From contig NC_088307.1 in the NCBI RefSeq assembly GCF_032854445.1, forward strand, positions 12,846,017 through 12,910,016: DNA of 64,000 bases. The letters run 5' to 3'. The notes under the pieces are model-generated. The model had not been told where the DNA came from and ran no database searches. It saw nothing but the letters and a program-made list of their open reading frames with translations. Shown here piece by piece: positions 1 to 34,500 of this stretch (positions within the stretch are counted from its first letter, which is position 1; every line of letters begins with the position of its first letter). Origin of the DNA: Liolophura sinensis. Taxonomy: Eukaryota; Mollusca; Polyplacophora; Chitonida; Chitonidae. The translations under genes were made by a program, and so were the position numbers.

Positions 1-245
1 TTACTCGCACCACGCCCCGCAGTTCTCTCTCACGTAAAGCAAGTATATCCTCGGTGTTTACTTACTCGCACCACGCCCCGCAGTTCTCTCACACGTAAAG
101 CAAGTATATACTCGGTGTTTACTCCCTCGCCCCTCGCCCCACGCCCCGCAGTTCTCTCTCACGTAAAGCAAGTATATCCTCGGTGTTTACTTACTCGCAG
201 AACGCCCCGCAGTTCTCCTTCATGTAAGGGAAGTACTCGGTCCCA
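1..245 (-). repeat. ~60-bp tandem array seeded on the donor of CRISP exon 8
   Basis: About four copies. Each contains, on the minus strand, the exon end coding ENCGAFC or variants followed by gtaagt and a linker. The true exon 8 end is at 195. The array continues past the left edge of the window. Confidence 0.85.
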
Positions 246-3243
246 GGTTTACAGTACGTGTCATAGTCCCAGGTGTTACAACAGCTGTCCTTGTCTGTCA
301 CACACACTGTGTCGTTAAACACACCTGGATAAAAAAAACGTGTACATTTACTCTCAAAAAATAATTTCTTTTCTTTCTGTTAAATTAAACACAAAATATG
401 TTGTTTGAGTGATGCTAGAGTGGATTTGGTTATTATGGCAGATTATTCCGCTAGATATGAACACCCTTTGTATTAATTCAACATAAAGATTATATCAGAC
501 TAACGGGATCTTATGTATGACAAAGTATTATGTTATTATGGTATTATAACTCAAATAACTTTCTGTTAAAATTAACAGATTCATCATTTTAGGGTAATGA
601 GTAATTGGATAAGTATATATTTATTTATTTATTCATTTGATTTATGGATAAAAGAGGTACAAGGCGACATTAATTTAAGATTCAACGCAGGTATTTAAGA
701 CCGCCATGTGGACGGTTAAATTTAAAATTGGACAAAGGATTTGATTAATTAATTTATTTATTTGATTGGTGTTTTACGCCGTACTCAACAATATTTCACT
801 TTTACGACGGCGGTCAGCATTATGGTGGGAGGAAACCGGGCACAGCCCGGGGGAAACACACGACCATCCGCAGGTTGCTGGCAGACATTCTCACGTACAG
901 CCGGAGAGGAAGACAGCATGAGCTGGACTTGAACTCACAACGACTGAATTGGTGAGAGGCTCCTGGGTAATTACGCTGCGCTAGCGCGCTAACCAACACA
1001 GCCACAGAAGCCCCCGAAGGATGTGAAGATGGACGAATAGATGGGATGGTGAACGGATTCACACAAAGATGGACGATAGGGTTGACAAGTAAAAAATTGG
1101 AAAAATTCAAGTTCGTGTAGGTAGACGAATAGAACAAAGGAATAATAGTTCCATGTAAATTTATGACACTTGACTGCTCACAGAGTGGTTAGATCACTGG
1201 TATATTATATTTATATTTTATTATATTTTTTATATTATATATATTTTTATACAAAAACAAACACTATCACCTACCTTCAAAAAAAAAACCTATCTGTAAA
1301 ATTTAAACGTCTGAGTGATGAACGAATGTACATGTGTGTTCTGTTATTGCAATAGAGTATACTGTCATTACAGCAGATTATTAAGTTAATTATTGCACAC
1401 ATATCCTGTTAACTAAACACAGAGATTGTATTAGAGAGGATATTATGTTGAATATGACACAGTAACATGTTACAATAACAATACATTCTAACATCACTCT
1501 GACAATAACTCTTAAATTTAACAGATTATCACCAAAATATTAAATTAATAAACACGACTTTAATCCTTAATAGACTGAGATGTAATTAAGTTTATCTCCA
1601 TTCTGAAAAGTAGACGAATATTTCTGAAATGACTTACGGCATTGAGCATCAACCGCGGGATCACACACTCCTGAAACAACAATAATATAATCCAATCTTT
1701 AGAAATTATGCAAACAATGGTAGAATCAGAAACCGTGATAAACTGCATTATTTCCCCCTTATTACACATCAGCACAAAATAATATCTATTTTGGTTACCT
1801 GTAGTGCACATCTCTGTGAAAATACGGCATTTTTTTTAAATTTAAATTTAAAAAAAATATTAAGTGTTAATTAAAGGTACACTATAAATTTACTGCACTG
1901 GTTTCGTTCCCATATCGTAGCTGTATCAAGGTTGCAGTAAGAGGATAGCTGGTGCAAGGTACAACACGTACTTATTGTAAGAGTTTCCGTCACATGTTAA
2001 ACTTCAGGTATACTCAACACTTACTGCACCTTTTTTTCTCACCCACATATGATATACCCCTGTTTGAGTCCATTGCTTTCTGGTTCACACATCGTAGCTG
2101 ATCAAGTTTGCAGTAAAAACAAACCTCCTTTACCGGTGCATCATATGATATACGTTTTATGTGATATATTTCTGCGTCATGGTTGCAGTAGAAACACCAT
2201 GTACTTACTGCACTGGTTGCATTCACATATCGAAACTGGATCTAGCTTGCAGTGATAACATAGCTGGTTCACGAGTACACCGTATGCTTACTGCACTGGT
2301 TGCGTTCACATATCGAAGCTGGGTCAAGGTTGCAGTAAGAACACAGCTGGTTCACGAGTACACCGTATGCTTACCGCACTGGTTGCGTTCACTTACCGTA
2401 GCTGGGTCTGGAATGCAGTGGGAACATAGCCGGTTCACGAGTACACCGTATACTTACTGCATTGGTTGCGTTCACATATCGAAGCTGGGTCAAGGTTGCA
2501 GTAAGAACACAGCTGGTTCACGAGTACACCGTATGTTTACCGCACTGGTTGCGTGCACTTACCGTAGCTGGGTCTGGAATGCAGTGGGAACATAGCCGGT
2601 TCATGAGTACACCGTATACTTACTGCATTGGTTGCGTTCACATATGGTAGCTGGATCTAGGTTGCAGTAAGAGCAAGGTTCATCACTGGCTAAGTACGGA
2701 TGTTCGTCCTCAAAACCTCCTCTGTTAAGAAAACCAACATAATTCACCTTAAACACTGATTAGTCACAGTTTTTATTCATATATTTTCTATAGTACTCCT
2801 GCATAAAAGCAACACACATGGCATTTTCACCGTCACAATTTTTGCAACATGGTCAACGTCGTACAATTCCATGACAATGCGAAGCTACGATTTAAATATT
2901 TTCAAGAACACTCACAATGAAATCTCAACTACGTAAGCACATGTAAATACACAGAAGAAATTATAACCAAAATAAACATGACCATGGGGAGATTTTATTA
3001 TCATAGCAAGTAAATCATCAAATTCTCGATGGTATAAATATTTCCAAAGTTAACCTCTTTCTGCCATAATATAGCTTGAGAGTAGCAGAAAAGTAGCAAT
3101 CACTCATTCGTTTATCCATTCAGTCAATCTGCTCTTTAAATGTACTTGACTTTAGCATAACGTGTAAGAGTCAAGTCCAGTGTCAGGATATAGTGCGAGG
3201 GTATACATATACGTCATATACATAGGCGTCATATTTGACGTCA

Positions 3244-3341
<98 letters not shown>

Positions 3342-6300
3342 GTTGGAGTCATGTCTGGTGTCAGGATATTATGAGAGGGTGTACGTAGGTGTCATGTCTG
3401 GTGCCAGGATACTGTGACGGGGTAATATTTATTTATTTGACTATTTGTTTGGTTTCAGCTGAACACCCTACTGAGAAGTCTGACTAATGTAGGCCAACGA
3501 TGGCGTCAGTTTTTTTAGGTGGAGAGAACAGGATTCGACTTCCTGGGCTAAATCAACCATCTTTGGCCTAGATTGCCTCATCAAATTAATGGAAGACAAG
3601 CAGTCCTCAGTGAACGTCAAACTACGTAAATTGTCACACTTACACCTCCATGTAATTGCACACCCACATCCACGAGCTGAAGGCAATCTCATTGTCCGGC
3701 AAAAGTAGAACGCCGCAGAATTTCTTCCCACAACCCACGTAATTAGTATTGTACCAAATGATCTGTATGGAATAGAAAATCGTATTACTTACTTATGTGA
3801 ATAAGTTTTACGTCACGCATAACAATATTTTATTTATGCAGCGGGTATCAGAGTTGTGAATGATAAACTAATTTAAACAAAAAATACAAAGACAAATATT
3901 AATAGCGGCAGTTTCCAACGCGCTGTTGGTGTTAGATTTATGTTCTCCATAACATTTCTTCCTATTTAGATTTTTTTTTAAATTATGGTTTTTTAAATTA
4001 TGGCCAGCATTATGGTGGGAGGAAATCGGGCAGAGCCCGGAGGAAACCCACGGCCGTACGTGGGAAGGTCTGCTGGCAACCTGCGGATGGTCGTGGGTTT
4101 CCTCCGGGAGAGGAAGCCAGCATGAGCGGGTCTTGAACTCACAGCGACCGCGTTGGTGAGAGGCTTCTGGGTCACTACGCTGCGCTAGCGCGCTAACCGA
4201 CTGAGCCACATAGCCCCCCCCCCTCCCCCCCAACTTTTAGAACACGATTGGATCCGTCTGCACACGTGTTTGTAACCATCCTATGGATTAAGTTTCTTCC
4301 TAACACATACCTGTGTAAAACGTCTTCTCTCGTTTGATTCTCTATACACGTGATTCTCCCCACCCTATAAAATCTACTTTCTCCCCTGATATTCAATTTG
4401 TTTTCTTTTTAGAACACGTTTGGTTCCGTCTGCTTGAGTTCCGTCCTGTAGATTTAGTTTCTCCCTGACACTTTATTACCTGTTTGATTCTCAGTTCAGA
4501 TTACTACTGGTCCTTCCCGCACGTATTTATGACATTCTTATCTATCCATTTTCTCCTTAACACTTAATTATCAATTTCAGCTTATATCACATTTGATTCT
4601 CCGCACACGACCTTGTGAGCTTCCTATATGTACAGACTTAGTTTCCCCCTGATATTTACCTGTTTCTACTCAGAATGACGTTTGATTCCCCGCGATTTCT
4701 GGATTTCTCATTGAAACAGTTTCTACTTAGAACTAAAAGGCAAATCACCTTTGTTACCTCCCAAACTCAGCTTGTGTTTAGAACATGCTTGATGACGCGC
4801 ACACGCTTTCATTCGTCTCCTACGAGTAATAAACTCACTGGCTTGTAGTTAGACCATGCTGGATGTTCCGCGCACGTGCTCGTCTCGCACGTGTAGTAAG
4901 CTCACCTGCCTGTAGTAAGAACAATTTCCGCACACGTCTTCGTCGTTCTCGTGTAGTTAGCTGACCTGGTTGTGGTGAGAACATGTTTGATTCTCCGTAC
5001 ACGCGTTCGTCTCACACGTGTACTAAACTCACCTGCTTGTAGTTATAGCATGCTTGATTCCCCGCACACGTTGTCGTTTGGTTCTCCACACACATCTTTG
5101 TCTCGTACGTGTAGTAAACCTAACTGCTTATTAGTCGAACACGTTTCATTCTTCGAATAATGTGTTGGCCACGTACGTGTAATAAACTCACCTGCTTGTA
5201 GTTTGAACAGGTTTTATTCTCAGCACACGTGTTCGTCTCATACGTGTAGGAATTCTTTTCGTCGTTAAATATAGCTAGGAGCGGCTCCGAAGGTAGTGCA
5301 GTTGAGTCGGATCGGAAGATGATTTGACCAACATCGGTGCCGTTGTCAGGACTGAAATATACACATTTTACAACTCACTTGAGTAAACCTATCTCTCATA
5401 AAATACAATTTTAGGAAAAAATAAGGCCGTTTCCATGCTAACCATGCAAAACATTCCATGCCATGCGTTACCACCTTGTTTATCTAAATTTCGTATAAAA
5501 GTCCAGTTATGAATCATGAGTCTCTTTGCAGTTCAGTAATGAGTGACACCGTATTGTGCAACAGACGCACAGCGCCGTGCAGTTAGTTGAGAGACTGTGT
5601 TGCCGATGTAACCTATAACAACGTGTAAACCATTGTGCAGTACTGTGCGGGGATATTTTTGCTTAGTACCATACGGTAATCGTATAGTAGGTCAACAGTC
5701 AGAATGTGTAGAAACTTATCTCTGCATGTTTCCAAAACCTGAAGACCTCCAGCAGGTTACTTTCATCATCGTTCACGGTGTCGCTATTGCTATAAGCCAC
5801 AGAGAATTACGACACATTAATGGATGGGGGCAACCGGGGTGCCCTGAATAAATCAGCACCCTTATCATGCACCTAATAAATACTACCGACTTAAAGCGAC
5901 AATCGGGGCCTCCGTGGCTCATTTGGTTAGCGCGCTAGTGCTGCGTAATGACCCAGGAGCCTCTCACCAATGCGGTAGCTGTGAGTTCGTCCAGCTCATG
6001 TCGGCTTCCTTTCAGGCCGTATCTTGGAAGGTCTCCCAGTACCCTGCGGGTGGTCGTGGGTTTCCCCCGGCCTCTGCCAGATTTCCTCCCACCATAATAC
6101 TGGCCGCCGTCTTATAAGTGAAATATTGTTGAGTACGGCGTAAAACACCAATCAAATAGATAAATAAAGCGACAGTCAAACCAGCCAGAGTTGGATTCGA
6201 ACACCCGATCTCATTGGTCAGGGGCCAATCGTGTCTTTCGAGAGAATATAGCTTTATCCGAAAGGGCCAGTGAATGTTATCATTAGATGCATCATTGCTT

Positions 6301-6958
6301 CAAGGATGGTATCACTAATAACAAAAATATGTTGACCTAGGCCTATTGCAAATTATCTGTTCTTTAATAATATGATGGTTTTATTCACGTTGGTTATCTG
6401 TGTTTTATCCTGTTCTGTAGCATTAACTTACAAGTTCAGGTTGGCGTAGTCAAATTTGCACGTGTCCGCCGTCTTCTGAGCAAGATTAGCCAAGTCTTCA
6501 CCATATTGCTGTTAAGAGAGTTAGGTAAAGTGTGAGATATATTTTTAGATAGATTAACAAATGAGACCATCGGAATCTTAACAAAAAGTAAATAGAAAAT
6601 CTCAATCATTAACCGAGAATATTAACTGCATCGGAAAAAACCATATAATCAGTGGCCAAATACACAAACGAATTTAATTGTACCGGAGAAATTTCACCTC
6701 TCTCTCCAAAACACACAAAAGAAGTTCTTTGGTTCCTCTGACAAATAGAGAAATGGAGTTCATGTCCTATAATGTTTATTCTGCCAAAATAAAACATTGT
6801 CGATGGGGTAATCTGTATAGAAACGTAAAGAATCTAGGAATACTTTTAGTGTCCATGACATGGCCACTCAGCTGGATTTGATACACAGATATACGTTTCA
6901 TTATACAAGTTACTGACTGAATAATTTATTCATCAACTGATGCAGATTCCTGTATTTT

Positions 6959-6989
<31 letters not shown>

Positions 6990-9722
6990 TTTTAAAAAAA
7001 AGTTCGTGAACAAAATCACTTGTGCTATAGTTGCCAAATTTATGGCGAGGAAACCGGAATTACCGACGTATATGAAGTATAGCACCGATTTTGGGCAAGG
7101 CACTGGTAAGTTTTCGCCTATATATATATCCTATAATTGCCTTCGGTAAGTCGTCTCAGTGAAGCAGCACTGGATAAAAGAGCGGTGGAATTCCGTCCTG
7201 CAACAAGAAGGATTCCTTCGTCGTCATATGACTGAAAAAAGAGAACTAGGTTAAACGCTAAGTACTCAGTCATTATATGTACTCCCGGTACATTGGTTGG
7301 AGACATGTGATCTTCGAACTACATGTAAGACCAGACAAGAGAGCGCCATTGATCGATGTTGGTCACCAGTAGCAGTAGGCGGGTATTTAATGTCTCGTTG
7401 CTGTTTGGTGCACAGGAACACTGATCTACGTGAGTACGCGAGAATGTAAGTATGTATATAAGTTTGGGGTTTAACGTCGTACTTTACAATGTTTCAGTCA
7501 TGTGACGACGAGGAGTCATTATACATATATGTGTGTACATATATTGTTTCCTCTTGTAGCAGAAGTATCATGCCGAAGACACCAGACATGACACCCCACC
7601 CAGTCTCATTATACTGAGACCGAGCCAACTATTCCTGTTTTCTTGCTCTAACCTCTCAGTGCTGAGCGCCAAGCGAGACAGCAACAAGTACCATTTTTAA
7701 AGTCTTTGGTATCACATGACCCGGGTTTGATCTCGGGATCTAAAACATTGAAGTGTGTAGAAAAATGTTTTAGTGACGTCGTTGGCATTATACGTTTATA
7801 TAGATGTATTTATGTTAACCCTTTAAGGTGTATTATGTCGTGGGTTTCCCCCAGGCTCTGCTCCGTTTCCTCCCACCATAATGTTGGCCGCCGTCGTATA
7901 AGTGAAATATTCGTGAGTACGGTGTAAAACACCAATCAAATAAATAAATAAATAAATCTCACTATTTTAAGCATGTTTCCCGCGTTTGCTCCGGCCTCCT
8001 CCCTTAACTGCTGATGAAGCTCCAATAGCGTGGTCTTGTCTTGATCGAACAGCACAGATGAGGGTAATGACGTCGTCTCTTGTCTCTTATGACGTAGCTG
8101 ACCCCTCATAGCGTGTAGACGTCTGGCGTCTCCCAGAACCACAGCGGCGTCATTCTCAACCAGCAGGCTATAGGAAAGAAATATAATAATACAGATAAAA
8201 ACGCACAGTACATGACAAAGTATTTATATCCATAGCTATGGAAACATGACAAAGTGTTTATCTCCATAGCTGTAGAAAGATGACAAAGTGTTTATATCCA
8301 TAGCTATAGAAAGATGACAAAGTGTTTATATCCATAGCTATAGAAACATAACGAAGTGTTTATATCCATAACTATAGAATGATGACAAAGTGTTTATATC
8401 CATAGCTGTAGAAAGATGACAAAGTGTTCATATCGCCCAGCGATGGCACGATGATTCGAAGCGATGACACGATGTCACTAAGCGATGGCAGAGAAGAAGC
8501 CAGCACGGGCTCTTGTAATTGTAACTGGGCATAATTAACTGGTGAAATTTGAGATTTTTATTCGAAATTTTGGGACGGCCGGGTTTTCGTACTATACTTG
8601 CTAAGTTCATGATCGACAATGTTTAAGTTGGTTGTAAAGTTTACTAAAGTGTCCAATGACTAGATTACAAGTAACATGACCGCCTTTTTGTCTGCTTAAG
8701 GCAAGGTGCCACGGTGTAATTTGCTACCATTTACTCATGTACGTGACCAGTTAGCAGAAATCCCTAACCAACGTAAATTTACAAGAAATCCGTATTTCAC
8801 CGGTTACGTTTAAATGCTTTACTCTCTACGCTGGAAACCCTTTAATATATTCCAACAGATACGCAATGTATTCGCCATTCTCAGGGGCTTCGTGGTTCAG
8901 TTGGTTAGCGCGCTAGCGCAGCGTAATGATCCAGGAGCCTCTCACCTATGCGGTTGCCGTGAGTTCAAGCCTAGCTCAAGCTGGCTTCCTCTCAGGCCGT
9001 ACGTGGGAAGGTCTGCCAGCCACCTGCAGATGGTCGTGGATTTACCCCGGGCTCTGCCCGGTTCCACCCACCATAATGCTGGCCGCCGTCGTATAAGTGA
9101 ACTATTCTTGTGTACGACGTAAAACACCAATCAAATAAATAAATCAATACACGCCATTCTTCATCAAAGTGGACAAACGGAGATCCTCGCGCACGGCTAG
9201 TCGCGTACAATGAATTTTGTTCAAACACCGGTGACATGTGACCATTTGCCAATAATCACATTGTCGTCACTGATCTGGTTTTAATGTGCAGTAAATTGGG
9301 AAAACAGGTACTAGTGGACATTTCGAGTGGTCTGCAGCAAACTTTACACTGTTAAAACAGCCACAAGTGCGTCGTTGACAGCTTACTTCTCTACTATAAA
9401 CGAAGAGACATCACTCTGCATTTGTGTTCTTTCTTGCAATTGGGATGAATACCATCAATAATTCCGGGATCTGGACTCAGATAAAGACATTTAAATGAAT
9501 GTGTGCTTGGTCCATGGCCAAGCTGTGCACAGAATTTCGTCCAAATAAATTTTGCTGATAATTACGCGCAGATAGACATACAAACGCCGGCATAAACATA
9601 ACCATCTTGGCGGAGGTAATAAATGAATTAATTCTTCAGTTGATTACCTAGAATCTACCGTTATGTTACCTGGCAAGTACTGTGACAATGACGAATCCTG
9701 TGCTGAGAAATGTGCCCTTCAT
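195..9722 (-). CDS. Secreted CAP/CRISP-family cysteine-rich protein (8 exons, possibly 3'-partial)
   Basis: Exons in transcript order: 9722-9670, 8167-7963, 6508-6432, 5351-5192, 3762-3644, 2721-2624, 1670-1638, 324-195. All have AG acceptors and GT donors, and every junction keeps phase (875 nt, about 291 codons). Exon 1 encodes a hydrophobic signal peptide ([17 protein letters not shown]), which fixes the start. Residues about 65-205 form a CAP (SCP/CRISP/Tpx) domain: LLELHQQLR with His69, then [19 protein letters not shown], a FNDE segment, the CAP1 position CSNYKQIIWY, VGCG, and CAP2 WVCNY at about 198-202. A Cys-rich hinge follows ([28 protein letters not shown]), then a ShKT/CRISP-like module from C256 with YM..NC spacing. 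The ShKT module lacks its last Cys. Either exon 8 splices at 194 to an exon outside the window, or translation ends at GAG-TAA just past 195. The usual CAP1 His is Asn162. CAP proteins are extracellular; the function of this one is unknown. Family call is strong, exact orthology is not. Confidence 0.88.
375..580. mobile_element. MITE-like inverted-repeat element B, copy 1
   Basis: Its ends are inverted repeats of tctgttaaattaaac and gttaaaattaacaga type, with inner arms gagtgatgctagag. Sister copies are at 1292-1527 and 11857-12080. Confidence 0.75.
750..1015 (-). mobile_element. SINE1, near full length
   Basis: tRNA-derived SINE. Read from the minus strand it has box A (TGGCTCAGTTGG type), box B (GAGTTCAAGTCC type), a conserved body, and a 3' end of gtgaaatattcttgagtacg type closing in AAAT repeats. 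It lies in CRISP intron 7. Confidence 0.9.
1292..1527. mobile_element. MITE-like element B, copy 2
   Basis: Starts atctgtaaaatttaaacg and ends taaatttaacagat. Inner arms gagtgatgaacgaatgta and tacattctaacatcac are inverted. It lies in CRISP intron 7, downstream of the SINE1 at 750-1015. Confidence 0.75.
1890..2700 (-). repeat. 83-bp tandem array seeded on the donor of CRISP exon 6
   Basis: Copies of the ctta(c/t)(t/c)gc motif lie at 2287, 2370, 2453, 2536 and 2619, exactly 83 bp apart. The copy at 2619 is the real donor region of exon 6 (gtaagt at 2623-2618, minus strand) and the unit contains the end of that exon. Degenerate units extend to about 1890. Confidence 0.92.
3245..3340. repeat. 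(TA)n microsatellite
   Basis: About 48 uninterrupted TA dinucleotides in CRISP intron 5, flanked by imperfect repeats of a tcatgtctggtg(t/c)caggata unit (3345-3420). The YIYI open frames here are artefacts. Confidence 0.97.
4000..4218 (-). mobile_element. SINE1 lacking its 3' tail
   Basis: Head and body are present, ending in gagccacatagcccc. The gtgaaatattcttgag tail is missing. It lies in CRISP intron 4, next to the exon-4 array. Confidence 0.85.
4235..5250 (-). repeat. Degenerate ~55-90-bp array seeded on the donor of CRISP exon 4
   Basis: On the minus strand the exon end (codons for [14 protein letters not shown], then gtgagt at 5191) is echoed many times downstream. The echoes are copies of acgtgtg...gagaat...tgttc...aactacaagcaggtgagt separated by tacacg-rich linkers. 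Identity falls with distance from the exon. Confidence 0.85.
5905..6164 (+). mobile_element. SINE1 inserted in an older SINE3, with target-site duplication
   Basis: Full-length SINE1 flanked by TAAAGCGACA at 5892-5901 and 6165-6174. The split host (about 5790-5904 and 6165-6250) matches the SINE3-like element at 30690-30895, including the box B remnant gttggattcgaac. It lies in CRISP intron 3. Confidence 0.88.
7138..7285 (+). mobile_element. SINE2 fragment, plus orientation
   Basis: Contains the SINE2 body (cttcggtaagtcgtctcag, then gtggaattccgtcctgcaac) and the tcgtcatatgactgaaaaa tail. It shares these blocks with 50882-51242. It lies in CRISP intron 2. Confidence 0.75.
7455..7735 (-). mobile_element. 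SINE2, minus orientation
   Basis: From tail to head: ggggtttaacgtcgtac, cagtcatgtgacgacgag, the ctcagtgctgagcgccaagc block, and a tRNA-like end gacccgggtttgatctcgg. It lies in CRISP intron 2. Confidence 0.75.
7842..7956 (+). mobile_element. 5'-truncated SINE1 abutting a splice donor
   Basis: Only the 3' half of SINE1 is present, ending in AAAT repeats. The last bases of its tail touch the donor of CRISP exon 2 (gtgaga at 7962-7957, minus strand). Confidence 0.85.
8213..8450. repeat. ~34-37-bp minisatellite
   Basis: Six to seven units of catgacaaagtgtttatatc plus catagctatagaaa. It begins about 45 bp upstream of the CRISP exon 2 acceptor (minus strand). The unit contains ctttctatag in minus orientation, which resembles that acceptor (ctttcctatag). 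Confidence 0.85.
8885..9150 (+). mobile_element. SINE1, near full length
   Basis: Boxes A (tggttcagttggttagcg) and B (gagttcaagcc) plus the standard tail. It lies in CRISP intron 1. Confidence 0.9.
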
Positions 9723-10117
9723 GCTGGTGATAATTAACACAAACCTGTTGTGAGACCGAATGATGAACTTCGGCAGATATACCAGATTATCGGCAGACAA
9801 TGCCAGATAACACGTGGGCAGGATCTTTTTTTTAAGAGCAAAACGTGTCACCGACGTGGCTACACGACACCTTTGTTATTTCAGGCCTTCTTGCAGGTTT
9901 ATTCCGCTAACACGTACGACCCTGATGTGCTAAAAGCTGGTATGATTAACTTCGTTTATCGCCGCGTGCGGTTACTGAATATGGGGGGGGGGAGTAGGTC
10001 TACAAGAACATATGTATTATGTTATATATGTATGTATATTATGCATTTTCAAAAACATAAACACTTGTAAGCAGTTTAAACTCTGGGTGGGGCATGAATG
10101 GAAAACTTAACTGTAGA

Positions 10118-10362
10118 GAGGGCCTCCGTGGCTCAGTTGGTTAGCACGTATGACCCCAGGAGCCTCTCACCAATGCGGTCGCTGTGAGTTCAAGTCCAGC
10201 TCATGCTGGCTTCCTTTCCGGCCGTACGTGGGAAGGTCTGCTGGCAACCTGCGGATGGTCATGGACTTTGCCCGGTTTCCACCCGCCATAATGCTGGCCG
10301 CCGTCGTATAAGTGAAATATTCTTGTGTACGGCGTAAAACATCAAATCAAATAAATAAATAT
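10118..10362 (+). mobile_element. SINE1 with a short deletion in the box A region
   Basis: ggcctccgtggctcagttgg at the head and the usual 3' tail. It lies just upstream of the CRISP start (minus strand). Confidence 0.88.
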
Positions 10363-12080: not shown

Positions 12081-12171
12081 AAACTTTTTGAGTGTAGCCA
12101 TTGTGGCAAAAACGTATTTATAGACAAGTCAGCCTATATATCCAGTCCATTGTGTTTAACACAACATACAA

Positions 12172-19500: not shown

Positions 19501-22500
19501 ACTTCAGTAATGGCAATGCGTTGGAGGCATAGCCTCACCCTGCCACAAGAAGTCACATTATTTGTACACGTAACTAATGACCCCTCTTCGTCAAATGACT
19601 GAAAAATTGCTAGGGATGACGTTAAACACTTAGCATACATACATACATACAGAAATATGTTTACCTTTATTTCTTTTTTTCTTTACAAATAAAATGCTGT
19701 GAAATGCTTGAAATCTATGGCAGTTGTATTGACCAGTTCTCTGAATCTGGGTGATGGTGATGAGTTTTTGTGGTGCATGTATGTACAACTATAGTGTGTA
19801 CCTCTGCACATAAAGAGCTAATACAACAATATGGTAGGGTATATGTGGGAATGTTTGTTACATCATTGATACCTAAAATTAAATGTCAAACTACTGTTAC
19901 AAGGAAACAACTGCTTCAAATATGTCTGATGTAGATTTAAGCTACATGTACATTGATAAAAGTGTGAGCTAAATTGATAAAAGTATGAGAGAAAGTGATA
20001 AAAGTGTGAGCGCAATTAATAAAAGTGTGAGCCCAGTTGATAGAAGTGTGAGCGAAATTGATGAAAGTGTGACACCAGCTAAAGTTTTCATTGCTTATTA
20101 CTTTGCAGATGTCTTTTGCTGATGGACAGTTTAGTGCGGTGTTAGATAAAGGGACACTGGATGCTGTGATGACAGACGACAGTGAGGAAGTCTCGTCGAA
20201 AGTTGATCAGATGTTTAAAGAAATCGGGAGGGTTTTACGACAAGGGGGACGATATGTCTGCGTGTCACTTCTACAAGATCATATTCTTAGAAAAGTACTC
20301 AAATATTTTCCAGAAATGTAAGTGGTACTCATTGAATTCTAATTACATGGTATGTACCCCAAATCGTCAACCTTTGCTTATATGAAAGAGCAACTTTCAG
20401 TGCAATTTATGCACATTTCTAATTTGATTTTGGAAACAAAATTTTATCAGTCTACACAGAATAATCCCTTCAGAATATGGTTGAATAAACACTTTACAAA
20501 CATGTGAAATGGTTGAAGAATTACAGTATATACATATCTTGGGCTCATTCCAAGCGGCCATTTTTAACTTAGTCCTCAGCATTTAAAACCCCTGTCAGCA
20601 TTTAAAACTTCAGTCAGCATTTAAAACGCCTTTCAGCATTTAAAACCCCTGTCAGCATTTAAAATTTCAGTCAGCATTTAAAACCTCAGTGTAAAAAGTA
20701 CTTCATTGGTTGAAAAGGTTGAAGGATCACTGTCTATCAGGTGCAGAATTTGTACAAAATGAAAAATTACCAATGTGGTATGTCCCCTGAGCTTTTTTTT
20801 TTGGCTCCAATTATGAACATGATATGTGTACCTAATAGACAGATCTGTACAATCAGTGGAGGAGCCTTTCCAAGGTTAGGTTTTAAATAGCCAGTAATTA
20901 AAGTTTGCAGGGTCAGCAGATTTATTGTCATAAGTTTATCATTTAAGTAAACACATATCTGTTTCAGAGGCTGGCCAGTGAGAATACATCAGATTTCTGA
21001 ACAGACTAATCCTGCTGAAGAAAAAGAATTCCACATGCCAGTGTTTTTATTAGTGTTCACAAAGTTTAGGAAAATACCATCCAGTAGACAAGTAAGTACA
21101 AGTTTGTGCTGTGACTAGTTTTATTACGTTTTGGAAAATACCATGCAGTAGAGAAGTGAGTACAAGTTTGTGTTGTGACTAGTTTTATTACGTTTTGAAA
21201 AATACCATCCAGTAGACAAGTATGTACAAGTTTGTGTTGTGACTAGTTTTATTACCTTTTGAAAAATACCATCCAGTAGACAAGTAAGTACAAGTTTGTG
21301 TTGTGACTAGTTTTATTACCTTTTGAAAAATACCATCCAGTAGACAAGTAAGTACAAGTTTGTGTTGTGACTAGTTTTATTACCTTTTGGAAAATACTGT
21401 CCAGTAGACAAGTGTAAGATGATAACTTGTGATGTTGATTGAAATTGACATAACACAGATTTTCTAACAAATACTACAAGAAAAGATACATGTATCTCCA
21501 TGCCTCAAGGATTCATTCATTCATTCACGAAGTAAGGTGAGGTATTGTGAGTGTGGGGGAAATGTGGTGTTGGTGCCCAGGTAAGCTGTTTTGTTTGGGT
21601 CATTTGAATAAGTTTTTTTGTTTGGGTCTGCTAGTCTCACAGTCTTCACATTATCTTTATGAAACTTGGTGGGAATGATGAACAGGATTTGGGGATTACT
21701 CAGTTTGAATCATGTGGGATATTTGCATTGTTAGCTCACTGTTATGAAATAAGCTTTTTCATGTTCATGAATTTTCTTGGTCTTGATAAACATGCTTTCA
21801 AGATGTTGACATTTTACTTGATTGTTCTGTTTTGGTTAAAACTACCATGTTTTGGACTTGCTGTGCTTACATTCACTTCTCAGATGTGTATGTAGCCCCA
21901 GAGGAAGGAAACCATTACAGGTGAACTGTCGGGTTTCTCATAACCCTTGTTATGGACTTGAATTGAAATGTAATACATGGAGCTTCACCGGTATGATGTA
22001 CATGAAGTTTGAGTTTGGGAGTATTTTTGTTCATGTTTAACAAAATCGTGATCTTTTTCATACATGTACCCTCTGTGGACTTTGACATGTAGCCATTACA
22101 TGTATGCTGATTGCTACATGTCTAGTGAATGTATTTTTGCAGTAATACACATACATCTCCCAAAATGCATGGTATTTGCGTAATTACATGTAGTGCCATT
22201 ATTATCTGTGTTGTCACATGTAATGATGTTTTTCTCTTCGCAGATATTAGAAGTATCAAATGATGATGATAAAATCCAGAGGTTTGACGATGTGGAGAAG
22301 CTATCAGCCTGGGTCAAGGAATCTCAATATTATGCTGTCATTAAACATCAACTGTCACAAAAGTAAGTCCTCCTTTATTCACAAAAGTAAGTCTTCCTTT
22401 ATTCACAAAAGTAAGTCCTCCTTTATTCACAAAAGTAAGTCCTCCTTTATTCACAAAAGCAAGTTCTCCTTTATTCATAAGTTAAGTTCTCCTTTATTCA

Positions 22501-25500
22501 CAAAAGTAAATCCTCCTTTATTCACAAAAGTAAGTTCTCCTTTATTCACAAAAGTAAATCCTCCTTTATTCACAAAAGTAAGTTCTCCTTTATTCACAAA
22601 AGCAAGTTCTCCTTTATTCATAAGGTAAATCCTCCTTTATTCACAAAAGTAAATCCTCCTTTATTCACAAAAGTAAGTCCTCCTTTATTCACAAAAGCAA
22701 GTTCTCCTTTATTCATAAGTTAAGTTCTCCTTTATTCACAAAAGTAAATCCTCCTTTATTCACAAAAGTAAGTTCTCCTTTATTCACAAAAGCAAGTTCT
22801 CCTTTATTCATAAGGTAAGTCCTCCTTTATTCACAAAAGTAAATCCTCCTTTATTCACAAAAGCAAGTTATCCTTTATTCACAAAGTAAGTCCTCCTTTA
22901 TTCATGAAGTAAGTCCTCATTTAATCACATTAGCAAGCCCTCCTTTATTCACAAAAGTAAGTCCTTCTTTATTCACAAAAGTAATTCCTTCCTTATTCAC
23001 AAAAGTAAGTCCTCCTTTAATCACAAAACTAAATCATCCTTTAATCACAGAAGTTTAGCATATTGTGTGAATCTTTAGTTCTGGCCCATGTGGTATTAAA
23101 ACAACATTAACAGCTCCTCAAATTTCACAGTTCCACACCGGTTTTCTTTTTTCTTTTTAAATGTAAATCTACGTGTATTGTATACAAACCCTGTCCCGAT
23201 TGCACCTTAGAAACCCAGTGGGACATAATGGGACATCTGGTGTAAGTATTCATCATGTTGAAATACAGGTAACTAGTCAGGGAATTTAATACTGAGATTG
23301 TCGTTTTGAAAGTAAATGGATCTCAGTGCTGAAACCTGATGACATAATCAGAAGATGTTCAGTGGCCTTTCATTGTACGCTGTGCATCTGAAAGTATGAA
23401 CATGTATTCTGTTTGGGGGCCTCCGTGGCTCAGTCGGTTTGCGCGCTAGCACAGCGTAATGACCCAGGAGTCTTTCACCAATGCGGTCGATGCGAGTTCA
23501 AGTCCAGCTCATGCTGGCTTCCTCTCCGGCCGTACGTGGGAAGGTCTGACAGCAACCTGCAGATGGTCGTGGGTTTCCCCCGGGCTCTGCCCGGTTTCCT
23601 CCCACCATAATGCTGGCCGCCGTCGTCTAAGTGAAATATTCTTGAGTACGGCGTAAAACACCAATCAAATAAATAAAATAAATGTATTCTGTTTGTTTTT
23701 TTAATGTGTCGGTCTAGTGCTTTGTCTCCGATTATACATCTTTTCAGGGGTACAAAATCTTGAAATGAGTATAGAAAAGCTTATCAAACATGCATGTACT
23801 AGGCTATGGTTATGCCTTGACCTTGGTAAGGAAATTTCTAAAGCTCTTATTTTTTGTTGCACCTGAATAATGATAAGCTGTTGACGGTGCTTGTGGGTAT
23901 TTTGTACAGTCTCACATTTCACTTTTCTGCCTCCTTCTGTACATGTATATGCATATGGTGTACAACTCATGTCACAGATGTTAGTTCATCACTAACTTGC
24001 CAAAGGTTGGTGGTTTACCCCAGCTTTCCTGTACCCATGAAATTGACCACAACTGTATAAGCGAAAAATTCTTTTTTTGAAATAAATAACTCTGATTAAC
24101 ATTTCACATTCTCTTCAAGTCTTGGAGAACTTACCTTTACATGTGGTTTGATGAAGTTTGACAAAAATGCATTTATTAAAACTTCTGTATAAAATTTTCT
24201 CTTTACCCAGATCCATATCAGATGAGCAGATTACATTAGAACTGTTTGGGCTGAATTCTGACTCTCCCCGGTACACGCTCTATGTGGTTGACAGCCCAAC
24301 CAAATGTTCCAATAAATTTGCAATATTTATTGTTCCAGAGGGAAGGTGAGTACTTGTAAGGGAGATAACTGCTGTGTGTTTTGATTTTTGGGTTTCTTGT
24401 TGGTGTCCTGATGCATCATGATAAATGTTTTCTGCTTCTTGTTCAAGTTATCCAGAAGTGTTGGTTGTTGAAGGCAATCAGCTCTGAAAGCCCAAATTGG
24501 CATTTCAGGAGTCCTCACAAGTTCATGCTGGTTCTATGAGACACTGTGGAGACGTTTGGTAGACTGAGTTCACGTCTCAAATGGTTGGGCTGTTGGTTCA
24601 GGGGTGTTGCCGTTCACATGATCCACAGTAAATCATGTCTTTTAGCCATGTTAATTTGCTTGAGCCCCGCCCTTATCTTGCCTGAACCTGCTTGGTCTCT
24701 CGCTTGAATCTTGGAAATGCGGGTTCAGCCTAATAGGTTGTAGGTTCAAATCCAGATTCGGTCAGTACAGCAAGGTAAATGGGGATGTTGTACCTGGGAT
24801 TAAAAATTGTGGTGGTTTTCCCGTGGACTGATTTCCTATACCCGTACACCTGGTCACTGTCCTATACAAAAACAGATCAAAAATGTAAATGAATCAATTT
24901 AGACTATTTCATGTGGTAGGAATGCAGGTTCTTTTGTCACCATGATGATGTGCTTTTATCCGTTCGACTTCGTAAATGCAAAGAAAACTTTAACATGAAC
25001 TATATTTCAGGGAAAGACCCATAAACACTGTCCATAAAAATAGTTTGACATATTTTTTTAGATTTTTTTTCTATCTCCCAAAATGCATTGAAAATTTGTA
25101 TTCTGTGATGGCCTTTCCTTCCCATATTGAGGACCAGTGATGTCACATCAGAGTCTTAACTGCCATGTACTGCTGGATTTTATCATTCCAAGTGCATGTA
25201 CAGGTAAAAATGTAAATGCAAATCGCCGAATGACCCTTGGAACTATTTGACAATGAAAACATAGATATGAGGTAGTGGATACTCTTTGGGGCACAACAGA
25301 CCACTGTAGAAAACTGATGTTGTAGAACCATTTACTTGATAGAAAAATTTCTAAAATCATAAATCAAATTATTTTTTCAGTATAGTGTTTGATGGTCTTT
25401 CATGGGGTGTATTCTTCATTTTTATGGGTTTTTTCTTACTTTAATGCCGTGTTTGAAGCAAAAAAAAAAAAACATCTTGAGTTATTAAACAGAAATTAGC

Positions 25501-28500
25501 AATGATCGACCAGATTTTATTTCATTTTGGGTAAAAATCTCAAGAAGTATCACTTTTTTTTGCTGCATGTGTCATGCACCAGCCGCAAGCAGAAGTTGCA
25601 GAATTTCCAAGATAAATCCTCTCGTCAAATATACAAATGAATAAATGGAATGAATTTTATACCCATCTATAATTGCTTGCTGTTGTTCTTGAACCTGTAT
25701 CAGGGAAACGGAATGGCTGTTCTCCAGTACTACGGGAAGGAGTCAGTTGTGTCGCAGTGCAGGGTTTGAAAGACTAGTCATTGTCACGCTCCACAGAATG
25801 CAGAAATATGAAAGTCCTAGAGAAGATTAAAGCTGAGTTATCGACAAAAGTCATGGAGCTGTCACCCCCGTCATTACCCAGGGGGATACAGGTGGGTGGA
25901 CTTTGGTCATGACCTGAAAAATGGTTTTGAAATTTCTTACCTTTTTCTCAGTTTTAGTGTACTATTTCTTATCTGAAAAAAAACAAAAAAAAAAAAAACT
26001 TACACACTCAAGTTTTGTGTATTTAAATTAATGTGATGGACTTTGGCCAAGAATCGGAATCAAAACACAGTTTGAAATTTAAGATTTATGAAACGAAATT
26101 ATTCTTGGACGTCTCCCATTTTAAGAAATCTCTCATGTAAAAAAAAAATGTAAATAATTGTCAATTTATAATCAAACACTCCAATGGATCTGGTTATCTC
26201 TTAAATAAGTCAATCTGATCAAAAAATACAATTCTGCAAATACACATATGTAATATTTGCCAGAGCAGTACTTCAATATTTTTAATCCATGCTCATCAAT
26301 GAATCCAGTTAAATGATCCTTCACTCAAGGATTAATCCTGCATTTCAGTGAATCCGTTCAGCCGCTCCTTAAACCATCCAATTGAGGGTAGCCATATTAC
26401 TCCCCAACAAATGACTCTAGGCCCTACATGATTCAGCTTTCAGTTTTATTTAAATCATTTTCAAGGATGAATCCATATTAGTCTATATCACAACAAAGAC
26501 TGAAAATCATTGTTGTGACTGTTGTGACAACTTTCTCGTATCATGTCTTGTGTATGGCATTTAAGTGATGCAGCACCGAAATGTGTTGCCATCATTGTTT
26601 TTTTTTTTAAGTGCAGGCGTAGCCTCATGTCATACCCTAAGCTTTTAGGCATCCAATAACAGGGAAAGAGATGTTGAACAAAATGTTAGGATGGTATCTT
26701 AAAAAGTACTGCTTGTATTGAGCTCTGGTTTTGCACACATGTAGAGCACAGTAACACAAGCGGGGATGTTCTATCACTGATTTGCTGTGTGCATATTAAG
26801 TACTGTAAATTACAAAATTCAGGACTTAGTGTTTTGTGTATCAGGATTAATGTAATAAAGCTATTGAAAGAAATATTCTTGATTTATTTATTTATTTGAT
26901 CGGTGTTTTATGCCGTACTCAAGAATATTTCACTTATACAACGGCAACCAGCATTATAGTGGGTGGAAACCGGGCAGAGCCCAGGGGAAACCCACAACCA
27001 TCCACAGGTTGCTGGCGGACCTTCCCACGTATGATCGGAGAGGAAGCCAGCATGAGCTGGACTTGAACTCACAGCGACCGCATTGGTGAGAGGCTACTGG
27101 GTCATCACGCTGTGCTAGCGCGCTAACCAACTGAGCCACGGGGGCCGCGAAATATTCTTCAGTACGGGGTAAAACACAAATCAGATAAATAAATAAATAA
27201 ATAAAGAGGCAAGCTGTTTGGTAGTCTTGCTACCAAATCTTTGTTTTTATAATCATGTTCTTCAGTCAATATTCTCGCAAGTCAGGAAATAAAAATCAAA
27301 CTGCTGTTATTTCATCAATCTTTTTTCGTTTTGCAGGTTCCATTCTTGTCTATGGGAGAAGACATAGGTCTGCGGACAATTCAGCATCAAGGTCAAAGTC
27401 CACACAGCGGCGAGTTCGTCGTGGAGGATGTGGAAGGAGACGCAGGAAGTCTCTTCAGACGCCTCATATTCCTTAGCAACCAAAATGCCATCCAATCAGA
27501 AGTTAGGCTTTTGAAAGGTGTGACTGAGAATTTTTTTCTTCCGCAAACATCGTACAATCGTTAACAGTATTAGTAAAGAAAAGAGAAAATCTTAGCCAGC
27601 TTTCTCATATAAAATTTGAGAATTTATTGCACTAGAAAAGAGCTATTGTTTAATGTTCAAGATATATGTCAGATATTTATTTGATATATATTTCCTATAT
27701 TTTTAAAGTCAGACTTTTTTTATTTTGTGCTTTATGGGAAAGCCGACACTAAAAAAAAAATCCACGTCTGGAATAAAAATAAAATTATTCTGTTTGTTTT
27801 CATGAGTTTCATTTTCAATGTTTCCAACCAAATAAACAACTCTTAAGCGAACAAATTGCTGGGACAGTCCACATTTCTCATAAATTCGATCATCAACCAA
27901 AATGGAATAAAAATAAAACTTAAAACTATTCTGTTTGTTTTCATGAGTTTCGTTTTCAATGTTTCCAACCAAATAAACAACTCTTAAGCGAACAAATTGC
28001 TGGGACAGTCCACATTTCTCATAAATTCGATCATCAACCAAAATGGAATAAAAATAAAACTTAAAACTATTCTGTTTGTTTTCATGAGTTTCATTTTCAA
28101 TGTTTCCAACCAAATAAACAACTCTTAAGCGAACAAATTGCTGGGACAGTCCACATTTCTCATAAATTCGATCATCAACCAAATGGAATAAAAATAAAAC
28201 TTAAAACTATTCTGTTTGTTTTCATGAGTTTCATTTTCAATGTTTCCAACCAAATAAACAACTCTTAAGCGAACAAATTGCTGGGACAGTCCACATTTCT
28301 CATAAATTCGATCATCAACCAAAATGGAATAAAAATAAAACTTAAAACTATTCTGTTTGTTTTCATGAGTTTCATTTTCAATGTTTCCAACCAAATAAAC
28401 AACTCTTAAGCAAACAAATTGCTGGGACAGTCCACATTTCTCATAAATTCGATCATCAACCAAAATGGAATAAAAATAAAACTTAAAACTATTCTGTTTG

Positions 28501-31500
28501 TTTTCATGAGTTTCATTTTCAATGTTTCCAACCAAATAAACAACTCTTAAGCGAACAAATTGCTGGGACAGTCCCCATTTCTCATAAATTCGATCATCTA
28601 CCAAAATGGAACAAAAATAAAATTGGAAGCTATTTTGTCCGTTTTTATGATTTTCCAGTTTTTCAAGGTTTTTGATCTAGTAAATATCTCTTTTAGAGGA
28701 AAAATTGCTGGGACAGTCCACATTTTTGTAAGATTTAGTCACCAGTTTTATTTTTTATATACCCTGCTCAATCATTGAGAAAAGATTCATTGTGCCCAGG
28801 AAAACAAAAATATGAATTGGGACCAAAGTGTGAGAATTCTGATAGTGTCAGATACACTTAGCCATTTTTTTGTCTCTCTGATTATACATTCACCCAAAAA
28901 AAATAAAAAGGAAATCGTCCATTGAATTTTGTCTAAGCTTCCAGTGTGTGATTTATGTTTTTCAGATACAGTGAAGAAAAAAGGTGGCAAGAAGACAAAT
29001 CTAGTGAGCATTGACAGTAGCTACCTAGCCTGTCAGAATCACACAGCCATGGTGGCTGGCTTGGCATTGGTGGAGGAGATACAAAATTTCTTAGGTGAGT
29101 TGACCGATTGATTGAGAGTGTTTACAGTGTACCTGGGGTCTGTTTTTTTTTTTCAAAACTTCGTCAAAGTTAACATTGTCTGTTGGCCGGCTAAGGGCCA
29201 TAAAAAAAATTTTACCAGATCATTTCACAGAAATAGAACTGTTTAAATCCTAGCCAGTTTACTACAGCCAGCTGTGTTACTGCTCTCTAGCAATCTGATT
29301 AGTGGAATCTATGATGGTACTATAAATCTTCAACTGTTTCAACAACAAAAGCACTTTTTTGCAGTAGAACTTTTGAATACATTTATTATGGAAATTAAAA
29401 TAAAAACGATTTGTTTGTGTCATTAAAGATACAAGCTTCATAAATCTTTACAAATCATTTCTCTACACTCCATAGTTCTCTCCGAATGTTTCAAAATATT
29501 GTTTGCAGAGGTGGTTAAAGAGCTTGAAATTCTTATTAATTGCATAATTGTAGCTGTTAATTCATCAAACATCATGGTGGCAGGTCTTTTTTTTTTCACA
29601 AACTTGATTCTTTAAATAAATTAAATTTTCACTCTTAATTACCCTAATTCTTCAACCATTTCTTTAGAGCAATTTCAGTGCAGTTTATGCACATTTTTAA
29701 TTTGATTTTGGAGACAAAACTACATTGGATGGATTGACCAGTTTCAGGGCTTCCCAAAAATTATGATTTTATTAGTCAACACAGAAAAATGCTTTATAGT
29801 ATGCTTGAATAAACACCTTGCAAACATGTGAAATGGTTGAAGTATTACGGTACATTTTTTCATTTTTTCTCCAGAAAAAATGTACAGAAACTTAGTGTTT
29901 TAGCAGATTATTTTTAAGCCATCTGCAAGGAGCTTCCCTTTGCCTTGTGACAGCACTTTATCGTCACTGCCACAGTACAATATGGACAGCCACACTATAA
30001 TTTGTACAGACACAGTATAATATGTACAGACACATTATAATATGTACAGCCACATTATATTATGTACAGCTATAGTATAATATGGACAGCCACAGTATAA
30101 TATGGACAGCCACAGAATAGTATGTACAGCCACAGTATATTATGGACAGCCACAGTATAATATGGACAGCCACAGTATAATATGGACAGCCACAGTATAA
30201 TATGTACAGCCACAGTATATTATGGACAGCCACAGTATAATATGGACAGCCACAGTATAATATGGACAGCCAGAGTATAATATGTACAGACACAGTATAA
30301 TATGTACAGGCACCAAATGACCTAAAAATTGTTAAGTACAGCATAAAACCCCAAGCATTCATCCTTCTGCTTGTACTGCGTAGTTTCTCTGCATTTTTGA
30401 AAATATTTAAAGAGCTGACAAGAAAATCTTTATTCCTTGAATTTTTGTCTACCTTTTTAGAAGTGGGCTTCTCAGCTTTAGTGTTGGGTCTGGGTGGTGG
30501 TGGGCTCCCGAAGTTTATACACGACCACTTCACTAAGGTAATTCTAACTATTTATTGTTTTAGTTAGTTATTTATTGATTAATCGATTGATGGTATATAT
30601 TGATTGTTAATCGATTGATGCTATATATTGATTGATTTAGTTTAGCTATTTATTTAGTTATTTACTGATTTATTGCATTGATTGATATGATGTGTTTACC
30701 ACCATTTTTCACTCGTGTGAGGGGGTCAGGTTTAAGAGTGGAGGAAACTGGAGTGCTCTGAGTAAACCATCATCCCTCATCAGGTACCTGACAAACCACC
30801 TGACTTAAAGCTGCAGTCGAACAAGCCAGAGCTGGATTTGAACATGCGACCTCATTGGTGAAGGGCTAGATGATCACAGTGAGGCAGCAAGACCCCTTGT
30901 AGTCAGTCAGTGAACATGCCTCTGTATAGGATGTCTCGGCTGCAAGACGAATAAAGTGCACATGTTCTACACATTTTGATCCTCTACATCAAACATATTG
31001 TTTAATGTGACAATACTTCAAAATAAATCTGATACTGGTATGGGTTTTTTTTGTGCCATTCTCAGGGGTCGTAGATTACTTGTTCTTTGTAAAGTTTCTT
31101 TACCCATTCAAACATGACAGCGCTATGAGTTCAAATCCAGCTCATGCCGGCGTCTTCCCGGGTTATAGCTGGAAAGGTCTGCCAGGAACCTGTGGATGGT
31201 CTTTGGGTTTTCGCGGGCTCTGTCTGGTTTCCTCCCACCATAATGCTGACCGCTGTTGTATAAGTGAAGTATTCTTGAGTATGGCATAAAACTCAAATCA
31301 AATAAATAAACATCACAACCATTGTGTAGGTGAGTAAAGTCCCAATCAAACTGGCAATCTCCCTAAATTCAGACTGGTTATTGTTTTAGGTATCTCTGAC
31401 AGCTGTAGAAATTGACCCGGTTATGCTTACGGTGGCAACCGACTGGTTTGGATTCCAAGAAAGCGATCGCCTCAAGGTTGCCATCGGTGATGCAGAAGAT

Positions 31501-34500
31501 GTGATCAAGCAGATGGCAGATGGAGGTGAGAGATGGAATACATTTGATTGATGTGTATTGCATTTGAAGGGATCTGATGTCGTTTGAAAGCACTGTTCTC
31601 ACACTTTAGCCAAGTTAGGACTAACACATGGAGATCACACTTTAACTGAGTTAGAACTAACACATGGAGATCAGTAATCTTAGTACATGTAGGTGCATTA
31701 TAGTCACTTTAAGTGTACATGTACCTGTATGTACAGGGGCCTTCATGGCTCAGTTGGTTAGCCCGCTAGCACAGCGTAATGACCCCAGAGTTTCTCACAA
31801 GTGCAGCCGCTGTGAGTTCAAGTCCAGGTCATGTTGGCTTCCTCTCCAGCCGTAAGTGGGAAGGTCTGTCATTAACCTGCGGATGGTTGCAGGTTTCCCC
31901 CGGGCTTTGTCGGGTTTCTTCCCACCATAATGATGGCCGCCGTCGTATAAGTGAAATATTCTTGAGTATGGCGTAAAACACCAATGAAATGAATAAATAA
32001 ATAACCTGTATGTACATGAAAGGGGAGCTGTGAAAGACAGGTATCAGTACACTGTATCTGAGGTGGGTTGTCATGTCTCGTGTATGGCATTTAAGTGATG
32101 CAGCACTGAAATGTATGCTTGTGTTTAAACTCAGCTGGTCAGTCAAAGGGTGCTGGACAGTAGGTGTCAATACACAGTAACTCGCCTAGATTGGCATGTC
32201 TGATGTTTTGACATGGCATTTGAGTGATGCAGTGCTTAGGGTACATGTATGTTGGTGTGGAGGAATTGAGCTGGTACATTTACTCCTTACTTGTGTTGTT
32301 GTCAGGTAAAGCAGAGTTGAACAGCAAGGGTCAAAGGTTATGATTCTTCATCTGTGCCTCCCCAGATTACTTCGTTTAGCAATTACTCGTTTACATTGTA
32401 AATCTGACAGTCAGTCTGGTAGAATGATTGAGTGGGACATATTACTTAATTAAGTGATGCTAAACGTTGTATTGTAGCGTTAACAGTGCAACATCATGGT
32501 AAATAGAGCATATATGTTATACAGGGTGATGAAACTGCAGCATAGGACATGTTCAGTATCAGACAACAAAATATACTCAACGCTGTTCGTGATGCTGATG
32601 GTAGACGCACTCAGTACATGAGAGCTGTGAACTATGATTACCAACCAGTGTGTTTTCACACTGCAGTAGCTCCTGGACTTTGTCCTAAAAATGTGAAAAT
32701 CTGGTGGAAATTGAAGCCACAATTGATAATGAATACTTACCCTGCTTGTCGAGTGAACACATTATTTAATACAATATATATTATATTGATTTATATTTGC
32801 ATTTATATTTTTGTTGAGTGTAGATATGATGTGGATGTCTTTCAGCACCGCAGCACCACCTGTTGTGATGAAAATCTGCTGGTACCTGATTTATTTATTC
32901 ATTTATTTGATTGGTGTTTTACGCCGTACTCAAGAATATTTCACTTATATGACGACGGCCAGCATTATGGTGGGAGGAAACCGGGCAGAGCCCGGGGTTA
33001 AACCCACGACCATCCGCAGGCTGCTGGCGGACCCAGCAGCCTCCCACTTACGACCGGAGAGGAAGCCAGCATGAGCTGGACTTGAACTCACAGCGACTGC
33101 ATTGGTGTGAGACCCCTGGGTTATTACACTGTGCTAGCGCGCTAACCAACTGAGCCACAGAGGCCCCCGGTACCTCATTTACAACCCATGTATATCTATA
33201 TGGACTCCAAGGGTGACACATTCTGTCATTTCCTCAGTAGACCACCTTGCTGGCCTACTGGTTAGAGCATCCTCCTCAAAGTCAAGAGACCCGGGATCAA
33301 ACCCAAGGTTTTAAAATTGTTACTTGCAGCTGCCTCACTTGGCACTCAGAACTGAAAGGTTAGAACAAGGAAACAGGACTGTGTGGCCCAGTGTCAGTGT
33401 AATGTGACTGGGTAGGGTGTCATGTGGTGCACTGCATGGACTTGCCCCACCACAAGAAGACGCAGTATATGTACACACACCTAATGACTCCTCGTCGTCA
33501 TATGACTGAAAAATTAAGGGTTAAACCCCAAGCACTCATTCGTTTATTCACTGTCTTAGTATAAGCATTACTGCACCTACATGCATTTGTTTACATTATA
33601 GGAGAGCAACATCTGGTGGTGATGCTGGATATTGACAGCAAGGACAAGACAATGGGAATGAGTAGTCCCCCTTTGGTGTTTGTTCAGCCAGAGTTTCTGA
33701 AGACAATAAAGCAGCTGCTTCATCCTGAAGGTGAGTACATGCATCCTTAAGGTGAGTACATGCATGCGGAAGGTGAGTACATGCATGCTGAAGGTGAGTA
33801 CATGCATGCTGAAGGTGAGTACATGCGTCCTGAAGGTGAGTACATGCATCCTGAAGGTGAGTACATGCATGCTGAACTGTTTGTTCCTTCTGCAGGTGTT
33901 ACATTCAAATCTTACCTGTTACATGTGTGTTTGGCCTGTTGCGTCCCATTGTTTTTCCTTCCACAGGTGTTACATTCAAATCTTACCTGTTACAGGTGTG
34001 CTTGGCCCCGTTGCCTCCCAGTGTTTTTCCCTCTGCAGGTGTTACATTGAGATCTTACCTGTTACAAGTGTGCTTGGCCTGTTGCGTCCCAGTGCTTTTC
34101 CCTCTGCAGGTGTTACATTCAAATATTACCTGTTACAGGTGTGTTTGGCCTGTTGCCTCCCAGTGTTTTTCCTTCTGCAGGTGTTACATTCAAATCTTAC
34201 CTGTTACAGGTGTTTTTGTGCTGAATCTGGCTTGCAGAGACGAGTCCTTAAAGACTCAGGTGATAAGTGACATCCAGGCTGTGTTTCCCAAGCTGTACTG
34301 TGTTAGCGTCTCAGGTGAGGTTAACGACATTCTCTACTGCCTTCCCTGTGAACGCCCAGACCTGCCAGACCTCGCTGATGAGACTTTACCAACGGAACTG
34401 TCCAACGATCTTAGGACTCTCAATAAACTCATCAACAAAGCAGCAATTAATGATGAACTGCCAGATCTTTTGGAAGCCATGGAAGGCTTGAAAGCTCTCT

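Follow-up and report, generated by a model that had tools for sequence, protein, structure and literature searches.

The chiton Liolophura sinensis (Mollusca: Polyplacophora) has a genome of 609 Mb. The 64,000 nucleotides analysed here (contig NC_088307.1, positions 12,846,017 to 12,910,016 of the forward strand; hereafter the window) carry two genes, encoding METTL13 and a CRISP2-like protein, in which exon-intron junctions repeatedly lie inside minisatellites. The genes are as follows, with coordinates counted from the first base of the window:

16520..34503, plus strand: METTL13 (eEF1A lysine and N-terminal methyltransferase), 13 coding exons
195..8167, minus strand: CRISP2-like gene (CAP domain), exons 2-8, the last exon lying beyond the window
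8167-7963, 6508-6432, 5351-5192, 3762-3644, 2721-2624, 1670-1638 and 324-195, minus strand: CRISP exons 2-8

The exon chains of both genes are supported by the identity of their products to deposited L. sinensis proteins. METTL13 (679 aa) is 100% identical to its deposited counterpart, one X aside, and 48-49% identical to a Branchiostoma protein, while the seven joined CRISP exons encode 273/273 residues of a deposited CRISP2-like protein. Both genes look single-copy. All 14 genome matches to METTL13 are at this locus, the seven matches to CRISP comprise six here and a distant one (31% identity), and a genome search, which covers one haplotype, revealed no further copy of METTL13 or CRISP. In METTL13, the conserved exon 7 is interrupted by a frame break of 1 nt near 25816 (25816-25819). 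The deposited protein, which is flagged LOW QUALITY, reads across this break, which is either an assembly slip or a true frameshift.

Seven junctions of the two genes (six donors and one acceptor) are spanned by arrays with units of 21-83 bp. All seven had been named in a preliminary description of this DNA, and all were confirmed. Tandem Repeats Finder (TRF; 54 rows for the window) alone places 6/38 junctions within an array of period at least 10. The remaining junction, at the donor of CRISP exon 4 (5192/5191), was found by wraparound alignment, in which approximately two diverged copies bridge the TRF array at 4812-5071 and the exon. In a 60-mer self-similarity test of 39 junctions (leaving aside the donor of CRISP exon 1 and possible METTL13 5'UTR introns), seven junctions score 55-105 and the remaining 32 score 26 or less. 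The arrays and their units are as follows:

21071..21413, plus strand: METTL13 exon 4 donor array; junction 21091/21092; 5.4 copies; unit 64 bp, consisting of a 21-nt exon edge and donor GTAAGTAC
22355..23054, plus strand: METTL13 exon 5 donor array; junction 22362/22363; ~29 copies; unit 24 bp, consisting of 8 nt of exon and GTAAGTCC
33721..33876, plus strand: METTL13 exon 12 donor array; junction 33730/33731; 7.4 copies; unit 21 bp, consisting of 10 nt of exon and GTGAGTACATG
33878..34218, plus strand: METTL13 exon 13 acceptor array; junction 34209/34210; 4.8 copies; unit 71 bp, ending in CTGTTACAG and 9 nt of exon
4769..5239, minus strand: CRISP exon 4 donor array; junction 5192/5191; 7 copies, more diverged; unit ~66 bp, including 48 nt of exon and GTGAGT
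2204..2672, minus strand: CRISP exon 6 donor array; junction 2624/2623; 5.7 copies, with worn copies to ~1865; unit 83 bp, including 49 nt of exon and GTAAGT/C
1..235, minus strand: CRISP exon 8 donor array; junction 195/194; unit 61 bp, including 41 nt of exon and GTAAGT

The CRISP exon 8 array runs past base 1 of the window, with decayed copies to approximately position -539. As the preliminary description held, each unit comprises an exon edge and the adjoining splice site (by wraparound alignment, in all seven arrays, with 8 to 49 nt of exon per unit), and the exon copy stands at one end of the array in 7/7 cases, matching the unit consensus at 90-100%. Its view that the arrays differ in unit length and do not form one repeat family also holds: the measured units are 64, 24, 21, 71, ~66, 83 and 61 bp, and no common sequence was seen among them by eye. 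A single family shared by many introns, as expected of introner or transposon insertion, was likewise not found when units were compared by eye. The proposed decay of similarity into the intron was not borne out. None of the six donor arrays shows a significant gradient (Spearman P of at least 0.055 in 6/6, with the lowest value running in the opposite direction); worn outlying copies are present in the CRISP arrays. An eighth candidate, at the CRISP exon 2 acceptor, was rejected, as the TRF array at 8212-8434 stops 45 nt short of the junction (self-similarity score 19).

Arrays account for 23.6% of METTL13 intron sequence, 13.2% of CRISP intron sequence and 20% of both together. In METTL13 intron 12, the 21-bp donor array and the 71-bp acceptor array are separated by a single base, so that 478/479 nt of the intron is array; this anatomy suggests intron growth from the two ends. 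In each of the other five array-bearing introns, the array share is 21-44%.

The same structure is supported at other places in the genome. A sample of kinase loci was assembled with human CDK1 as the query (128 matches), from which 41 exons in 20 stretches, with 80 junctions, were chosen for their clustering and short open frame, with the sequence still unseen. Three of the 80 junctions lie in arrays (95% interval approximately 1 to 11%); the three cases are independent, and each full copy in these arrays contains the exon edge:

Stretch L048, donor: CDK-like exon, unit 47 bp, 8 copies, reaching the end of the stretch
Stretch L053, donor: Aurora kinase, unit 76 bp, 2.2 copies
Stretch L050, acceptor: PASK (PAS kinase), unit 80 bp, 5 copies, beginning where the stretch begins

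The CDK-like exon falls under the Pfam cut-off, yet its match to CDK1 has an E-value of 1.1e-11. The ten units from the window and the kinase loci are unlike one another, judged by eye and not by pairwise scores. Pooling these samples, 8/60 donors and 2/59 acceptors lie in arrays (P = 0.09), so a donor bias is suggested only.

The L. sinensis genome is rich in minisatellites. Twenty random 10-kb stretches from five chromosomes contain 46 arrays covering 14.7% of bases, with two of the stretches consisting mostly of satellite, and a search for exon edges beside these arrays gave no clear case. In a GALNT-like intron of one stretch (L013, 5399-6490), a 62-bp array with worn copies starts tens of bases from the donor. 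By eye it does not clearly include the donor, and it may be an old array of the same type that has lost its exon edge. Control exons were predicted in these 20 stretches and in stretch L009: the 37 predictions, less eight judged unlikely or repeat-like and with two actin pieces joined, gave 28 exons (56 junctions). Of these, 19 (38 junctions) were recognised by eye, three with a question mark, and Pfam scored above its cut-offs for 7/20 peptides submitted. Random points in the control stretches lie within arrays in 5.8% of cases. The actin gene (L009, 5404-6018) adjoins the window, and a 19-bp array there stops 9 nt short of the predicted boundary of its exon.

The seven arrays of the window are probably mirage minisatellites, each founded by a tandem duplication across a splice site, with the additional copies being intronic and spliced out. 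The preliminary description regarded the mechanism as unknown, overlooking that repeats of this type have already been described and named in amphioxus. The proposed model is as follows. The array would likely be founded by tandem duplication of DNA spanning the splice site. All additional copies would lie in the intron and would likely be spliced out, as the spliceosome would use the copy adjoining the coding exon. The founded array would then gain and lose copies by slippage or unequal exchange, growing on the intron side only, since selection maintains the exon. The copy in the coding exon would persist as a permanent seed, and the net outcome would be a longer intron. The model agrees with several features of the arrays: they stop at the exon, their unit consists of the exon edge and splice site, their units look unrelated from locus to locus, intronic splice-site copies deviate from the consensus to the same degree as exon-derived bases, and the exon-proximal copy is the one that agrees with the deposited proteins (7/7 cases; these proteins are gene models), which contain no repeat copies. 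A broader version, in which junctions and above all 5' splice sites are hot spots of tandem duplication through a co-transcriptional process (such as R-loops or paired nicks where U1 binds), acting in both chitons and lancelets as a general engine of intron growth, is doubtful.

Several results weigh against this model, and some of them would favour coincidence, whereby minisatellites land throughout introns, some happen to overlap a junction and the one-sided geometry is imposed by exonic selection. The window was chosen for its striking look, and the evidence for splicing comes from deposited gene models. Arrays occupy 14.7% of random stretches (satellite blocks included) and 20% of the introns of the two genes. 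Under a null in which arrays are fixed blocks, the coverage of junctions in the window (7/38, 18%) is no higher than that of random intron bases (20%), and in the terms that the preliminary description had set for its refutation the window fails this test. Junctions at the kinase loci are little enriched by this measure (3/80 vs 2.4% of random points in those loci), and junctions are more densely covered in the window than there (7/39 vs 3/80, P = 0.014). None of the 38 junctions of recognised control exons lies in an array (0/56 with the unrecognised exons included), and the window is thus a dense patch, although the Pfam-supported control exons alone (0/14 junctions) do not differ from it (P = 0.17). 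Strong donor motifs occur in the 46 random array units no more often than after shuffling at cut-offs of 6, 7 and 9, and somewhat more often at a cut-off of 8 alone (10/46 vs 12.9% in shuffled units). A unit can include a junction, however, only if its founder spanned that junction. In a second null, which we think is the better model of array origin, only the founder unit is dropped at random in introns; the unit alone is used because copy gain within an array cannot reach outside sequence. This test was applied to 15 arrays, all within introns that separate METTL13 coding exons 1-13 or CRISP exons 2-9, with the CRISP exon 4 array extended to the junction as in the wraparound alignment. It left out the TRF arrays at 18807-18833, 3202-3234 and 3974-4003 (scores 54, 52 and 60) and those in CRISP intron 1 at 8212-8434 and 8439-8490 (one of them sizeable and not at a junction). 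Seven of the 15 arrays are at junctions, compared with 0.67 expected, and 0/20,000 trials reached six; at the kinase loci, 3/8 arrays are at junctions, compared with 0.56 expected (P = 0.013). Coincidence is somewhat unlikely, and a bias of founding events to junctions, perhaps to donors more than acceptors, has support but falls short of proof. A genome-wide bias is likely, though the samples are small. The evidence thus favours the recurring junction-linked duplication of the preliminary description, in respect of the founder excess in both samples and the three kinase junctions, and departs from it in the lack of coverage enrichment in the window and the empty control junctions.

The remaining explanations concern what the arrays do, how they relate to the origin of the intron and whether they are real. 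That selection maintains them as reserve or regulatory splice sites influencing splicing would accord with the retention of GT across the six donor arrays (41/53 intronic copies) and with a Caenorhabditis elegans minisatellite linked to alternative splicing (PMC4039745). There is no sign of extra conservation of the splice site, however, in the intronic copies of the window arrays (nine splice-site columns; copies under half length excluded): splice-site columns deviate from the consensus as often as others (44/469 cells, compared with 85/891 in exon-derived and 37/691 in other intron columns), and GT is absent from 9/28 intronic copies of the METTL13 exon 5 array. If METTL13 exons 4, 5 and 12 are read on in frame, stop codons appear at 21116, 22364 and 33748, respectively, ahead of the second donor in the first two cases and within the second copy in the third, so these distal donors could act only by truncating the protein. 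A role as reserve or regulatory sites is very improbable. It is a little less improbable that the arrays are the trace of introns recently gained through AGGT tandem duplication, as has been proposed from amphioxus globin mirages (PMC3087553) and as the nearly complete occupation of METTL13 intron 12 by arrays might suggest. The 60-base stretch surrounding the acceptor resembles the donor unit no more than shuffled sequences do (across six introns, 146 to 497 of 500 shuffles reach as high a score), and the unit copies end well short of the acceptor, indicating that the two splice sites do not derive from one still-visible duplicated AGGT. Of the intron growth or gain envisaged in the preliminary description, growth fits the anatomy of intron 12, while gain does not fit acceptors that are unlike the donor units. 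As judged from their units, the arrays appear to multiply an existing splice site, and the intron is not visibly created by them. An assembly artefact is the least probable explanation, and extremely so. The METTL13 exon 7 frame break and the LOW QUALITY flag indicate that small errors may exist, but substitutions distinguish the copies and are arranged in ordered higher-order patterns, and the structure is present at four distinct genomic locations.

The chromosome-scale, minisatellite-rich genome of L. sinensis makes a junction bias of tandem duplication testable genome-wide, and how much intron length such duplications have built is a further question that can now be tested. As the arrays hold many plausible splice sites, they are also traps for gene prediction.

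A number of other features were observed in the window. In a six-frame Pfam search of 34.5-49.5 kb, the sole match is an exon of a mitochondrial ribosomal S18 protein (45767-45925, minus strand; 37.4 bits), which also matches human MRPS18A. A 15-bp repeat of 2.1 copies (45894-45925) straddles the acceptor of this exon and is possibly a newborn mirage or a chance repeat within the pyrimidine tract. An element of approximately 250-300 bp, which we presume to be SINE-like (short interspersed element), recurs by eye on both strands, for example at 18820-19000, 23417-23670, 26883-27150 and 32889-33170. The interspersed repeat at 376-599 has approximately 40 other genome places (71-78% identity), and its end (376-436) also matches the opposite strand beside several copies, as terminal inverted repeats would. 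Large arrays with periods of 28-32 and 88 bp occupy 61841-63482 at the right end of the window and are tied to no gene found; the GC skew there is strong (0.42 over 62001-64000).

Tandem duplications that involve splice sites are known from several systems. In the model of intron gain by tandem genomic duplication of AGGT, reviewed in PMC3443670, one duplication yields both splice sites of a new intron. The chiton arrays similarly involve tandem duplication of a splice-site motif, but multiply a splice site that already exists. Intron gain by tandem genomic duplication has reportedly been studied in a potato RdRp (RNA-dependent RNA polymerase) gene, and Zhuo et al. 2007 are said to have described human introns derived from tandem arrays. 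In the human tandem-repeat genes UBC and VCX3A, which have dual-specific splice sites, the units bear splice sites and are tolerated because splicing can remove them, as would be the case here (PMC10809524). The units of those genes are coding (228 nt in UBC) and their AGGT serves as both sites, whereas the chiton copies are intronic according to the gene models. In-frame coding units, the mark of dual-specific repeats, are not seen in the chiton arrays: METTL13 exons 4, 5 and 12 are followed by stops, the proteins are without repeats, and 4/7 units (64, 71, 83 and 61 bp) are not multiples of three, while those of 24, 21 and ~66 bp keep the frame.

The closest resemblance is to the mirages of amphioxus, tandem repeats across exon-intron boundaries described in the globin genes BflGb6 and BflGb9 (PMC3087553), in TnC and PGBD5 (PMC3902484) and, reportedly, in Adh3. 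According to PMC3087553, the globin mirages have varied unit lengths, occur at both boundaries and carry AG or GT in many copies though not in every one; splicing is reported as regular and length as unstable, and intron gain is proposed. The chiton units likewise span the 5' or 3' boundary (eight donors and two acceptors), have locus-specific lengths (21-83 bp) and retain AG or GT in many, not all, copies (GT in 41/53). Unlike the amphioxus cases, the chiton arrays are known from sequence alone, two of them meet and fill a single intron, and the host is a mollusc. No mollusc mirage was found in the literature searched, which covered few subscription papers. Mirage reports in that literature are from lancelets, and the five chiton genes would extend them to a second phylum and to the protostomes. 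By their anatomy, the chiton arrays are best regarded as belonging to this known kind of minisatellite, now in a second phylum.

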